Made by a program: the position numbers and the translations under genes. Below the pieces are notes generated by a model. That model did not search any database. It was not told where the DNA came from and was given only the letters and a program-made list of their open reading frames with translations. A DNA stretch of 64,000 bases from Rhizobium sp. FY34. GTDB lineage: Bacteria; Pseudomonadota; Alphaproteobacteria; Rhizobiales; Rhizobiaceae. This document shows positions 38,228-46,341 of this stretch, one piece after another (position 1 is the first letter of the stretch; the number at the start of each line of letters is the position of its first letter). Location of the stretch: contig NZ_STFZ01000006.1 of NCBI RefSeq assembly GCF_005222845.1, forward strand, positions 186,001 through 250,000. The letters run 5' to 3'.

Positions 38228-38273
38228 CGGACGCGCTCCCGCGTGAATGCGCACCGAACGCCGCGAGGATATG

Positions 38274-38666
38274 ATGGCGAATATGACAAAAAACCGGCCG
38301 CTGTCGCCGCATTTGCAAATTTATCGTTTTGTACCCACCATGGCCATGTCGATCATGCACCGCATTACCGGCGGCGCACTGTATTTTGGCACGGTTCTGG
38401 TCGCGGCCTGGTTGATTGCCGCCGCATCGGGCGAAGAATACTTCGCCTATGTGAACTGGTTCTTCGGTTCCATCGTAGGTCAGCTTATTCTGTTCGGTTA
38501 CACCTGGGCAATGCTGCACCACCTGATCGGTGGTCTGCGTCACCTGATGTGGGACCTTGGCTACGGCTTTGACAAGGATTTCGCGACGCTGCTCGCCAAG
38601 GCCAATCTGGTGGCCTCCATTGCTCTGACCGTCCTTGTCTGGGCGGTTGTGCTGATCGTTCGCTGA
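38274..38666 (+). CDS. sdhC: Succinate dehydrogenase cytochrome b556 subunit
   Basis: This 130-residue membrane subunit has three hydrophobic helices. It carries the SdhC signature RPLSPHLQIYRF, MHRITGGALY and the heme b ligand histidine in MLHHLIGGLRHLMWDLG. It anchors complex II and helps bind heme b and ubiquinone. ATG at 38274 has GAGG five bases upstream; ATG at 38271 is also possible. It starts the operon sdhC-sdhD-sdhA-small ORF-sdhB. Confidence 0.94.
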   Translation: MANMTKNRPLSPHLQIYRFVPTMAMSIMHRITGGALYFGTVLVAAWLIAAASGEEYFAYVNWFFGSIVGQLILFGYTWAMLHHLIGGLRHLMWDLGYGFDKDFATLLAKANLVASIALTVLVWAVVLIVR

Positions 38667-38678
38667 GGAGCTGACTTT

Positions 38679-39053
38679 ATGGATATGCGCACTCCCCTCG
38701 GGAAGGTTCGGGGCCTTGGCTCAGCAAAGAGCGGCACCGATCACTTCTGGAAGATACGCACCACTTCGGTGGCGCTTGTTCCGCTCATGCTGTTCTATGT
38801 GGTTTTCCTGATCATGTATGCAGGCAAGCCCTATGCTGATGTCGTCTCTGCTCTTTCCAATCCCTTCGTCGCGACCATCAATGCGCTGACGATTATTGCC
38901 AGCATCGTGCACATGAAGCTGGGCATGGAAGAGATCATCCAGGATTACATTCATTCGGAAGTGATGAAGCTTGCACTCCTGGTGCTCAACTCGTTCTTCT
39001 CGCTTCTGGTCGGCGGTCTCTGTCTTTTCGCCGCCTTGAAGATCGCATTCTGA
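38679..39053 (+). CDS. sdhD: Succinate dehydrogenase membrane anchor subunit
   Basis: This 124-residue protein has three hydrophobic helices with the SdhD features: [17 protein letters not shown] at the start, and [15 protein letters not shown], whose histidine is the second heme ligand. It pairs with SdhC. It starts 12 bases after sdhC. Confidence 0.93.
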
Positions 39054-39066
39054 GGTTCATCTCGTC

Positions 39067-40908
39067 ATGGCATCGATCACTCCCCTTTCGCAGACCGGCA
39101 AGGCCTATACCTATGTCGACCATTCCTATGACGTGATTGTCGTGGGCGCTGGCGGCGCTGGCCTTCGCGCGACGCTTGGCATGGCCGAGCAGGGCTTCAA
39201 GACGGCCTGCATCACCAAGGTTTTCCCCACCCGCAGCCACACGGTTGCGGCGCAGGGTGGCATTGCAGCCTCGCTGCAGAACATGACGCCGGACAGTTGG
39301 CAGTGGCACCTTTACGATACCGTGAAGGGTTCTGACTGGCTCGGCGACGTCGATGCCATGCAGTACATGGTCATGGAAGCGCCCAAGGCCGTCTATGAGC
39401 TGGAACATTACGGCGTGCCCTTCTCGCGTAACGAGGAAGGCAAGATCTACCAGCGTCCGTTCGGCGGCCATATGCAGAATTTCGGCGCCGGCCCACCGGT
39501 GCAGCGCACCTGTGCCGCTGCCGACCGTACCGGCCACGCCATTCTGCACACGCTCTACGGCCAGTCGCTGAAGCACAATGCCGAATTCTTCATCGAATAT
39601 TTCGCGCTCGACCTCATCATGTCGGATGATGGCCGCTGCACGGGCGTCGTAGCCTGGAACCTCGATGACGGCACCATTCACCGCTTTGCGGCCAAGATGG
39701 TGGTTCTGGCGACCGGCGGTTACGGCCGCGCCTATTTCTCGGCAACCTCTGCCCATACCTGCACCGGCGACGGTGGCGGCATGGTGGCGCGTGCCGGCCT
39801 GCCGCTGCAGGACATGGAATTCGTGCAGTTCCACCCGACCGGCATCTACGGCTCCGGCTGTCTGATCACAGAAGGTGCGCGCGGCGAAGGCGGTTACCTC
39901 GTCAATTCCGAAGGCGAGCGTTTCATGGAACGCTATGCGCCGTCCGCCAAGGATCTTGCCTCGCGTGACGTGGTCTCCCGTTGCATGACGCTGGAAATCC
40001 GCGAAGGCCGTGGCGTTGGCAAGAACAAGGACCACATCTTCCTGCATCTCGACCATCTCGACCCGGCTGTTCTGCATGAGCGCCTGCCGGGGATTTCCGA
40101 GAGCGCCAAGATCTTTGCCGGCGTTGACGTGACGCGCGAGCCGATCCCTGTTCTGCCGACCGTTCACTACAATATGGGCGGCATTCCGACGAACTATTGG
40201 GGCGAAGTGCTGAACGCCGATAGCAACAATCCGGAACGGCTGCTGCCGGGCCTGATGGCCGTTGGCGAAGCCGGGTGTGCATCCGTGCATGGGGCAAACC
40301 GTCTCGGCTCCAATTCGTTGATCGATCTCGTGGTGTTTGGCCGCGCGGCCGCTATCCGCGCCGGTCAGGTCATCGATCGCGTGTCTCCGGTGCCGGCCCT
40401 CAATGTCGCCGCCTGCGACAAGATCATGGATCGTTTCGACGGTCTGCGTCATGCCTCGGGTGCAACGCCGACAGCGGTGCTGCGCGACAAGATGCAGCGC
40501 GCCATGCAGGATGATGCCGCCGTGTTCCGCACGCAGGAATCGCTGGAATCGGGCTGCAAGCGCCTGTCGGCGATCTGGGGCGAGATGAAGGATCTGAAGG
40601 TCACCGACCGTTCGATGATCTGGAACTCGGATCTGGTCGAGACGTTGGAACTGCAAAACCTCATGGCCAATGCCATCACGACTGTCTACAGCGCCGAAGC
40701 GCGCAAGGAGAGCCGTGGCAGCCACGCCCGCGAGGATTACACGGATGGCGCCTTTGCCGGTCGTGATGACGTGACCTGGCGCAAGCATTCGCTGGCCTGG
40801 GTCTCCGAAGCCGGTGACGTGAAGCTTGATTACCGTCCGGTGCACACAGAACTTCTGACCGGTGGTATTGATCCTGCAAAGATCGAACCGAAGGCGCGTG
40901 TGTACTGA
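39067..40908 (+). CDS. sdhA: Succinate dehydrogenase flavoprotein subunit
   Basis: This 613-residue subunit oxidises succinate to fumarate through covalently bound FAD. It has the nucleotide site [12 protein letters not shown], the FAD-linked histidine in [13 protein letters not shown] and [22 protein letters not shown] with active-site Arg. Typical length. It starts 13 bases after sdhD; its stop TGA is separated from the next start by a single base. Confidence 0.97.
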
Positions 40909-40909
40909 G

Positions 40910-41251
40910 ATGCGGAAGATTGCCTTTCTTTCGCTTGTAATCGCCGCTGTTGTCGATGCGCAGCCTTTGATCGCCGCGGAGTCATACAAGCTGCGCGCTC
41001 CCGGCGGGATTGAGGCGCGCACCAGCAACGAAGTTGGCGTCTGGAAATCGGCGAAGGCAGCCAAGGGCGCCCACGAATCTTTGGTGATCGATAACCAGTT
41101 CATGTCAAAAGAACTTGCCTGCATCGTGCGCCCCGGCACCAAAGCTGAGGTGCTTGAGCGTGCCGAATCGGTTGCCATGGTTCGGGCCAGCAACGCGATG
41201 TTCGGCGGATGCAAGGGTTATGTGAAGACGGACTTCCTGTCGGCAAACTAG
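40910..41251 (+). CDS. Small secreted protein inserted between sdhA and sdhB
   Basis: This 113-residue protein starts with a signal peptide (MRKIAFLSLVIAAVVDAQ, cleavage near 22-23) and then has about 90 residues with two cysteines (in ELACIVRP and GGCKGYV), strands and a closing GYVKTDFL that resemble an SH3b-type fold. It begins one base after the sdhA stop and ends nine bases before sdhB, so it is translated from the sdh transcript. I do not know this gene from other sdh operons and cannot assign a role; periplasmic, since it has no membrane segment. Confidence 0.7.
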   Translation: MRKIAFLSLVIAAVVDAQPLIAAESYKLRAPGGIEARTSNEVGVWKSAKAAKGAHESLVIDNQFMSKELACIVRPGTKAEVLERAESVAMVRASNAMFGGCKGYVKTDFLSAN

Positions 41252-41260
41252 GATTTTATC

Positions 41261-42040
41261 ATGGTAGAACTCGCTCTCCCGAAAAACTCCCAGATGACTG
41301 AGGGTAAGGTCTGGCCAAAGCCGGCCGGCGCCCAGAACGTCCGGGAATTCCGTATCTACCGTTGGAACCCGGATGACGGCCAGAATCCGAGCATCGATAC
41401 ATTCTATATCGACGTAGACGATTGCGGCCCGATGGTTCTCGATGGTCTGCTCTATATCAAGAACAATATCGATCCAACGCTGACGCTGCGACGCTCCTGC
41501 CGCGAAGGCATTTGCGGTTCCTGCGCCATGAACATCGATGGTGCCAATACGTTGGCCTGCACCAAGGGCATGGACGATGTGAAGGGCACCGTGAAGGTCT
41601 ATCCGCTGCCGCATATGCCGGTGGTGAAGGATCTGGTGCCGGATCTGACCAATTTCTATGCCCAGCACCGTTCCATCGAGCCCTGGCTGAAGACGGTATC
41701 TCCGCCGCCGGCCAAGGAATGGAAGCAGAGCCATGAGGACCGCCAGAAGCTGGATGGTCTTTACGAGTGCATCCTGTGCGCCTGCTGCTCGACGTCCTGT
41801 CCGAGCTACTGGTGGAATGGCGACCGCTATCTCGGTCCTGCCGTCCTGCTGCAGGCCTATCGTTGGCTGATCGATAGCCGAGACGAAGCCAAGGGTGAGC
41901 GATTGGACAATCTGGAAGATCCCTTCCGTCTCTATCGTTGCCACACGATCATGAACTGCGCCCAGACCTGTCCAAAGGGTCTGAACCCGGCCAAGGCCAT
42001 CGCCGAAATCAAGAAGATGATGGTCGAGCGTCGAGTCTGA
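41261..42040 (+). CDS. sdhB: Succinate dehydrogenase iron-sulfur subunit
   Basis: This 259-residue subunit carries the three cluster motifs: [15 protein letters not shown] for 2Fe-2[17 protein letters not shown] for 4Fe-4S, and [17 protein letters not shown] for 3Fe-4S. It passes electrons from FAD to the membrane part. Start ATG 41261. The hairpin at 42061-42095 follows the stop. Confidence 0.97.
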
Positions 42041-42211: not shown

Positions 42212-42751
42212 ATGCAGTTGAGATATGTGGTGACCGGTGTTTTGGTCGCAGTATCGCTGGCCGGCTGCCAGCGGACCTCGTCCAATCCTTATAGCGATCT
42301 CCCGTCGCCGGCGCCCCTGCAGGCTCAGCCTGTTCCCTCCGTTCAGGCAGGGCAACTGCCGCCGCCGGGCATTGATGATCCTTCGCAGTTTCCAGCTGCA
42401 CCGGCGTCCAATACGGCTGTGGCCTCGCTGCCGCCCGGTGGTGCCGGCGGCGCAGCACCGGCCACAGCGCTCGACGTCACAAAGGAATCCATGGTTGGAA
42501 ACTGGCGGGTCAGCAGCGGCGGTGCAAGCTGTGACATGTTCCTGACGCTTACCAATCTCGGCAGCGGTGCACGTGGCGGAACGCGCGGCTGTGCCGGCGA
42601 TCTCACCATGATGGGGTCCTGGGAAGTGTCCGGCAAAACGGTGCTGTTCAAGAACCGCAATGGCGATGTCATTGGTCGGGTCTACAAGAGCGCTGATACC
42701 CGCTTTGACGGAACGACCAATTCCGGGCAGCCGCTGAGCCTCAGCCGATAG
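42212..42751 (+). CDS. Inh/Omp19 family lipoprotein (protease inhibitor-like)
   Basis: This 179-residue protein has a lipoprotein signal with LAGC at 16-19, so Cys19 is lipid-modified. A proline/alanine-rich stretch to about residue 85 is followed by the Inh/Omp19 domain: [31 protein letters not shown] and [22 protein letters not shown]. AprI/Inh inhibits alkaline metalloproteases; in Brucella Omp19 protects against host proteases. The function here is inferred from the family. Single gene. Confidence 0.82.
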
Positions 42752-46323: not shown

Positions 46324-46341
46324 TCTGAAGGACCGGAAACA

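Follow-up and report, generated by a model that had tools for sequence, protein, structure and literature searches.

Why does the succinate dehydrogenase (complex II) operon of Rhizobium sp. FY34 carry a small extra gene between sdhA and sdhB, and does that place betray a role in complex II? The gene, here called gene X, lies in a stretch of 64,000 nucleotides (nt) (contig NZ_STFZ01000006.1 of assembly GCF_005222845.1, forward-strand positions 186,001 to 250,000), referred to below as the window. An earlier account made without database searches (the sequence-only reading) had described a 113-residue exported protein with two cysteines and an SH3b-like end, encoded from one base past the sdhA stop, and had suggested that it could help to assemble or protect complex II or could be just an inserted gene. 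The start, the 113 codons and the cysteines (Cys71 at 41120-41122, Cys101 at 41210-41212) were all borne out. Comparison with related genomes supports the inserted gene: with a probability of about 0.68, X is accessory cargo in a recurrent sdhA-sdhB insertion slot, acting in the envelope and entering by recombination in the flanks. X is unlikely to be part of complex II or to help assemble it.

Distribution and position of gene X

X is a real but rare accessory gene. It occurs in two of 57 genomes of the source genus (g1; the source genome, G000, and G052), although sdhB is present in all 57, so that its presence does not track sdh across relatives. Clear matches number three among 394 genomes of the family (the source, G208 and G268) and three among 397 of the order (the source, with G783 and G805 of a second family). 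By genus, it was found in 8/148 genomes of the Rhizobium-like genus g30, 1/5 of g69, 1/16 of g71 and 2/14 of g204; these draws overlap, and their denominators are not to be summed. Named carriers are Ensifer sp. LC11 (counted as G208) and Rhizobium mongolense USDA 1844, whose X region reads identically to that of G878. Distinct carriers amount to 14 in five genera and two families, ten with intact and four with decayed copies.

In all 14 carriers X is the first gene 3' of sdhA, its start lying -1, +1, +2 or +12 nt from the sdhA stop, and the nine intact homologues, with identities down to 32%, all occupy the same site. Another open frame of roughly 180 codons separates X from sdhB in G783 and G805. 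Conservation of position had been proposed by the sequence-only reading as support for a function tied to complex II, and the position is indeed conserved; nor is X absent from all relatives or present in many copies elsewhere, the outcomes named as speaking against such a function. At the E limits used, no copy outside sdhA-sdhB was found in the genomes searched. The source genome holds a single copy, two further matches (E 0.19 and 0.41) being taken as chance; tblastn at E 0.01 found no X on plasmids, and 19 pattern matches in viral contigs included no relative. Four weak matches in family genomes (E 0.004-0.008) were rejected, their frames resembling unrelated proteins and none lying within an sdhA-sdhB pair.

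Cargo at the sdhA-sdhB junction

Within the source genus, 34 of the 57 sdhA-sdhB junctions are empty, with 17-19 base pairs (bp) between the genes, and 23 hold an insert: a GT25-type glycosyltransferase gene in 15, a member of family F154 in three, X in two and other genes in three. The nearest flank relatives of the source genome mostly carry the glycosyltransferase, their 12-row clade comprising 11 GT25-type genes and one X. The survey also took one genome from each of 108 further genera. In 74 of them sdhA and sdhB gave separate matches: the genes lie over 120 bp apart in 36 (over 150 bp in 35) and closer in 31, and in seven they are non-adjacent, including one false pair (G078, spacing -496272) that was dropped. 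Among the remaining 34, one match reads through the junction in 32, leaving no large insert, and two were unmeasured. An insert is thus present in 36 of 99 measurable genera, mostly of genes other than X; in six of the 36 the sdhA match has just 53-56% identity.

Insert contents were read for 34 of the 36 genera, the other two not being spanned. Pfam searches with 18 insert proteins identified Glyco_transf_25 (two proteins), CRISPR_Cas2, PIN, Cys_rich_CPCC, Sulfotransfer_2, Methyltransf_21 and SUFU, while the other ten had no family or fell below the cut-off. We take the CRISPR_Cas2 protein to be Cas2/VapD-like. A few inserts among those listed are long or carry opposite-strand genes, and one, of 134 bp in G061, has no frame of 60 codons. 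Relatives thus use the slot for various other genes, including ones for glycosyltransferase, PIN-domain and methyltransferase proteins, which supports reading X as an inserted gene. In 15/15 congeners the GT25-type gene begins 1-4 nt past the sdhA stop and overlaps sdhB by 8 nt, and seamless fits are therefore frequent in this slot and no peculiarity of X; the VapD-like cargo starts at least 30 nt past the sdhA stop.

Several further features of the slot were observed. Family F154 (about 145-155 residues) was seen at eleven loci, at one of which it looks shortened, and is the cargo spread over the largest number of genera among those classified; an assignment to DUF3052 was rejected because Pfam gave no family. 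Proteins that read as exported and bear a C...C.C motif recur in distant genera (five loci) and possibly form one family. A SUFU-domain gene (E 2.2e-35) stands together with a GT25 gene in the slot of G141. Long opposite-strand frames at two other loci, one of 3.9 kb, indicate that inserts are not always co-directional single genes.

Lateral movement of gene X

Divergence of X does not follow that of its neighbours. The sdhA genes of G864 and G845, both of g30, are separated by a synonymous divergence (dS) of 0.31, and their X copies are only 52% identical; X of G052 is 83% identical to that of G864 in the other genus and 65% identical to that of the source genome in its own. X and flank trees were compared for 10 of the 14 carriers (G850, G867, G783 and G805 left out), the flanks contributing 1,870 columns. 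The six g30 rows form a clade in the flank tree (support 100/99), a grouping that the X data reject in the approximately unbiased (AU) test (p-AU 9.7e-40). The flanks in turn reject the X groupings G052+G864+G882+G831 (p-AU 1.2e-12) and LC11+G845+G878+G926 (p-AU 1.6e-4). Only a single inner branch of the X tree is starred. G052 belongs to a cluster of close relatives in which the junction is empty or filled by other genes, and the flanks of its closest flank relative, G034, are 97% identical around an empty junction. The X tree thus contradicts the flank tree, and by this comparison X has evidently been transferred laterally between species into one site, sdhA-sdhB.

Control junctions

The sdhC-sdhD and sdhD-sdhA gaps do not exceed 49 bp in any of 38 operons, 31 of which have an insert between sdhA and sdhB; these comprised 16 congeners, LC11, R. 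mongolense and 20 genera selected for such an insert. The sucC-sucD junction behaves differently. It exceeds 150 bp in 34 of 72 genomes from the same set of 74, a count that omits second, weaker sucC/sucD-like copies (in at least eight genomes) and fragments in two genomes. At the equal cut-off sdhA-sdhB exceeds 150 bp in 35/67, although these genomes were chosen because no match read through the junction, which enriches them for sdh inserts. Because sdhC-sdhD and sdhD-sdhA are tight but sucC-sucD is enlarged, sdhA-sdhB is special in its operon and not in the genome, and the idea that it is the only slot was rejected.

Inserts were retrieved for 20 of the 34 enlarged sucC-sucD junctions. All have a forward frame of at least 120 codons, which proves little by itself because the DNA is rich in G and C. 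Ten proteins picked from these inserts for testing gave five PIN domains, one cupin, one DUF1579 and three without a family. This junction is a second intra-operon slot, often with PIN-domain (VapC-like) genes. At both slots the long, conserved subunit genes may serve as good homology arms, sdhC and sdhD being short.

Selection and decay

The alignment of the ten intact rows has 21 invariant columns, including Cys71, Cys101, Trp45, LR.PG and FLS; the VG.W motif is likewise invariant in 10/10. Ratios of nonsynonymous to synonymous divergence (dN/dS) are low in close intact pairs (G783-G805 0.13, G864-G882 0.23, G864-G831 0.20, G882-G831 0.21) and in the more distant pairs window-G052, window-LC11 and G052-LC11 (0.12-0.24). 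The value for LC11-G268, 0.47, comes from a distant pair with dS near saturation, and sdhA nonsynonymous differences (pN) against G805 and G783 (0.68-0.70) were excluded as an out-of-register alignment artefact. Judged by these ratios, X is evidently a real gene under purifying selection.

Its fate differs in part of g30. A 33-codon deletion that removes Cys71 is common to G878, G926, G850 and G867, and the last two have frameshifts on top of it. Between G878 and G926, X is near neutral (dN 0.04 vs dS 0.05) and sdhA dN is 0.01. X decayed in these four genomes while sdhA stayed conserved, and X is therefore dispensable in that lineage.

Export and predicted fold

The N-terminus of X (MRKIAFLSLVIAAVVDAQPLIAA) reads as a signal peptide, consistent with the export proposed earlier; in the copies of G783 and G805 a lipobox-like LASC/IVSC stretch replaces it. 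The supposed SH3b-like end fared less evenly. An AlphaFold2 model built on an alignment of three rows resembles SH3, over the whole mature protein and not just its end, at low confidence (mean predicted local distance difference test score 61.9, predicted template modelling score 0.53; the other four models 32-40 on the first measure). In VIA-align, model residues 22-113 align with SH3 regions found in NlpC/P60 enzymes and in an endolysin, with Z of 8.7 for 3h41, 8.2 for 6biq and 8.1 for 4krt, all bacterial cell-wall hydrolases, and with 4epc also among the matches. These matches are barely above background, because models with no clear match typically reach a best Z of 7 to 8 as well; the best Foldseek E was 0.24.

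Sequence searches did not uphold the SH3b label. Pfam returned no SH3 family for X or four homologues at E 10, nor for the G268 copy at E 0.1, and no family above cut-off for X, a TOC159_MAD match at E 0.057 (half its cut-off) being discarded. NCBIfam had no family for X of the source genome, and profiles of 3 and 10 rows found no PDB sequence match at E 5 and 10. PADLOC assigned no defence family to X of the source genome or of G805, and PHROGs gave nothing informative, one match at E 0.34 over 21 residues being discarded. A resemblance of the model to bacterial SH3 is nonetheless likely, and together with the predicted secretion signal and the invariant cysteine pair it makes a stand-alone SH3b-like envelope protein the likeliest description of X. 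Peptidoglycan binding would be a guess by analogy with the structural matches.

Gene order in the window

The features of the operon are collected in Table 1. Nine bp separate the X stop from the sdhB start. A scan of 40700-41400 found no promoter-like site, and its sole terminator-like match is on the opposite strand. An antisense open frame of 742 codons (38986-41214, minus strand) spans sdhA and X; we regard it as a mere shadow of the coding sequence and do not count it as a gene. Downstream of sdhB, 42212-42751 encodes a lipoprotein-like protein with a protease-inhibitor Inh domain (E 1.9e-24), which we take to be Omp19-like; similar frames also lie 3' of sdhB at two other loci.

Table 1. 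Features of the sdh operon and the sucC-sucD junction (positions in the window)
Feature	Position	Strand	Remark
sdhC reading frame, cytochrome b anchor	38247..38666	+	real start possibly an internal ATG
sdhD	38679..39053	+	reading frame
sdhA, 613 residues, left wall of slot	39067..40908	+	stop TGA 40906-40908
Gene X, 113 codons; SH3b-like predicted exported protein, no database family	40910..41251	+	ATG start; stop TAG 41249-41251
Putative X signal peptide, residues 1-23	40910..40978	+	reading of sequence; lipobox-like stretch instead in second-family homologues
Predicted SH3b-like mature domain of X, conserved Cys71 and Cys101	40979..41248	+	alignment; fold from a low-confidence model
AGGA Shine-Dalgarno-like motif overlapping X stop, and spacer to sdhB ATG	41250..41260	+	similar among X copies of the family
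sdhB, 259 residues, right wall of slot	41261..42040	+	ATG at 41261
sucC-sucD junction, empty, 18 bp	46324..46341	+	insertion slot in relatives

Explanation and alternatives

We propose that X would be translated by coupling to sdhA, given that its copies begin at -1 to +12 nt relative to the sdhA stop and that the scan above showed no promoter-like site. The product would be exported through its signal peptide or lipobox, would fold into a disulfide-held SH3b-like barrel and would act in the envelope, most likely at peptidoglycan. The gene itself would travel with flanking sdhA and sdhB DNA and enter by double homologous recombination; this would account for its having been found in no other place. 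More broadly, and with about even odds, sdhA-sdhB and sucC-sucD may be standing intra-operon cargo slots of the family: the subunit genes would act as homology arms, cassettes (X, GT25, F154, PIN-domain, VapD-like and others) would be exchanged among species and be expressed immediately through translational coupling to core tricarboxylic acid (TCA) cycle enzymes, and X would exist nowhere else.

Several points weigh against the proposal that X is recombining cargo with an envelope role. Restriction to the slot was examined for X alone among the cargo families. A clade of the two g1 X copies is not significantly rejected by the X data (AU p 0.0545), and the p-AU values are somewhat optimistic because the groups were picked after pairwise identities and dS had been seen. 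A 100-bp identity scan of the flanks of G052, the window, LC11 and G864 detected no breakpoint and no mosaic. Of the 14 carriers, 4 have a damaged copy. The fold is predicted with low confidence, and SH3b finds no support from any sequence profile.

If X were a periplasmic factor for the assembly, stability or protection of complex II and owed its place after sdhA to that function, this would account for the position of 14/14 copies directly 3' of sdhA, even at 32% identity and in another family, and for the tight coupling of the X start to the sdhA stop. The same slot and sucC-sucD, however, hold unrelated genes, the GT25-type ones with the same tight spacing, and the position of X therefore does not imply such a role. 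Most relatives lack X despite universal sdhB in the genus, it has decayed in four Rhizobium-like genomes that conserve sdhA, and SdhA and SdhB face the cytoplasm, whereas X reads as exported. We consider this role improbable. An ancestral X in the sdh operon of the order, lost many times without lateral transfer, would fit its patchiness over two families at an invariably single site, but is already disfavoured by the strong conflict of the X and flank trees and the low X identity between G864 and G845 at modest sdhA dS; the 34 empty junctions of the genus, moreover, are spacers too short for remnants of X. This origin seems to us unlikely.

Compatible with X as cargo is a narrower suggestion, that X serves in the envelope for immunity or against phages or competitors and that the slot is a small defence or conflict locus. 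The PIN-domain, Cas2/VapD-like and SUFU-domain proteins among the cargo, a sub-threshold match to a restriction endonuclease toxin and the PIN proteins at sucC-sucD point that way. Against it, X has no PADLOC match, no informative PHROGs match and no viral relative, and 10/18 insert proteins have no family above cut-off while several others are transferases, which leaves the suggestion doubtful.

Significance and comparison with known systems

The reading of X as cargo carries a warning, that a gene inside an operon, even at a fixed place, need not share the function of that operon. The wider sdhA-sdhB slot is of more interest than X itself. At two junctions within core TCA-cycle operons, varying cargo widens the gap between the genes, which offers a natural experiment on the entry of foreign genes into operons that stay unbroken. 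A literature search of titles and abstract starts, with subscription journals mostly outside its reach, returned no work on genes between sdhA and sdhB in rhizobia.

The predicted barrel of X (residues 22-113), in a protein that reads as exported, resembles the SH3b domains of NlpC/P60 hydrolases, endolysins and autolysins (3h41, 4krt, 6biq, 4epc). Unlike these, X stands alone, with a conserved cysteine pair, no hydrolase and no Pfam or PDB sequence match, and the likeness comes from a low-confidence model. Closer at hand, the slot proteins of G060 and G121 are also about 100 residues long, bear cysteines and read as exported, but have a C...C.C pattern, no Pfam family and no similarity to X by eye.

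The slot itself is best compared with the hotspots of horizontal gene transfer between core genes, which diversify through double homologous recombination in the core genes on either side (Oliveira et al., 2017; PMC5635113). Like them, sdhA-sdhB is one site between core genes with turnover of unrelated cargo, the genealogy of its cargo (examined for X only) is detached from that of the flanks, and Pfam found no integrase among its 18 insert proteins. Unlike them, it lies within a core TCA operon, where the cargo often reaches to within a few bases of the gene on each side. Operon interiors are considered poor sites for new genes in the same paper; on this basis, the sdhA-sdhB and sucC-sucD slots fit hotspots of flank recombination, yet are an exception to the rule on operon interiors.
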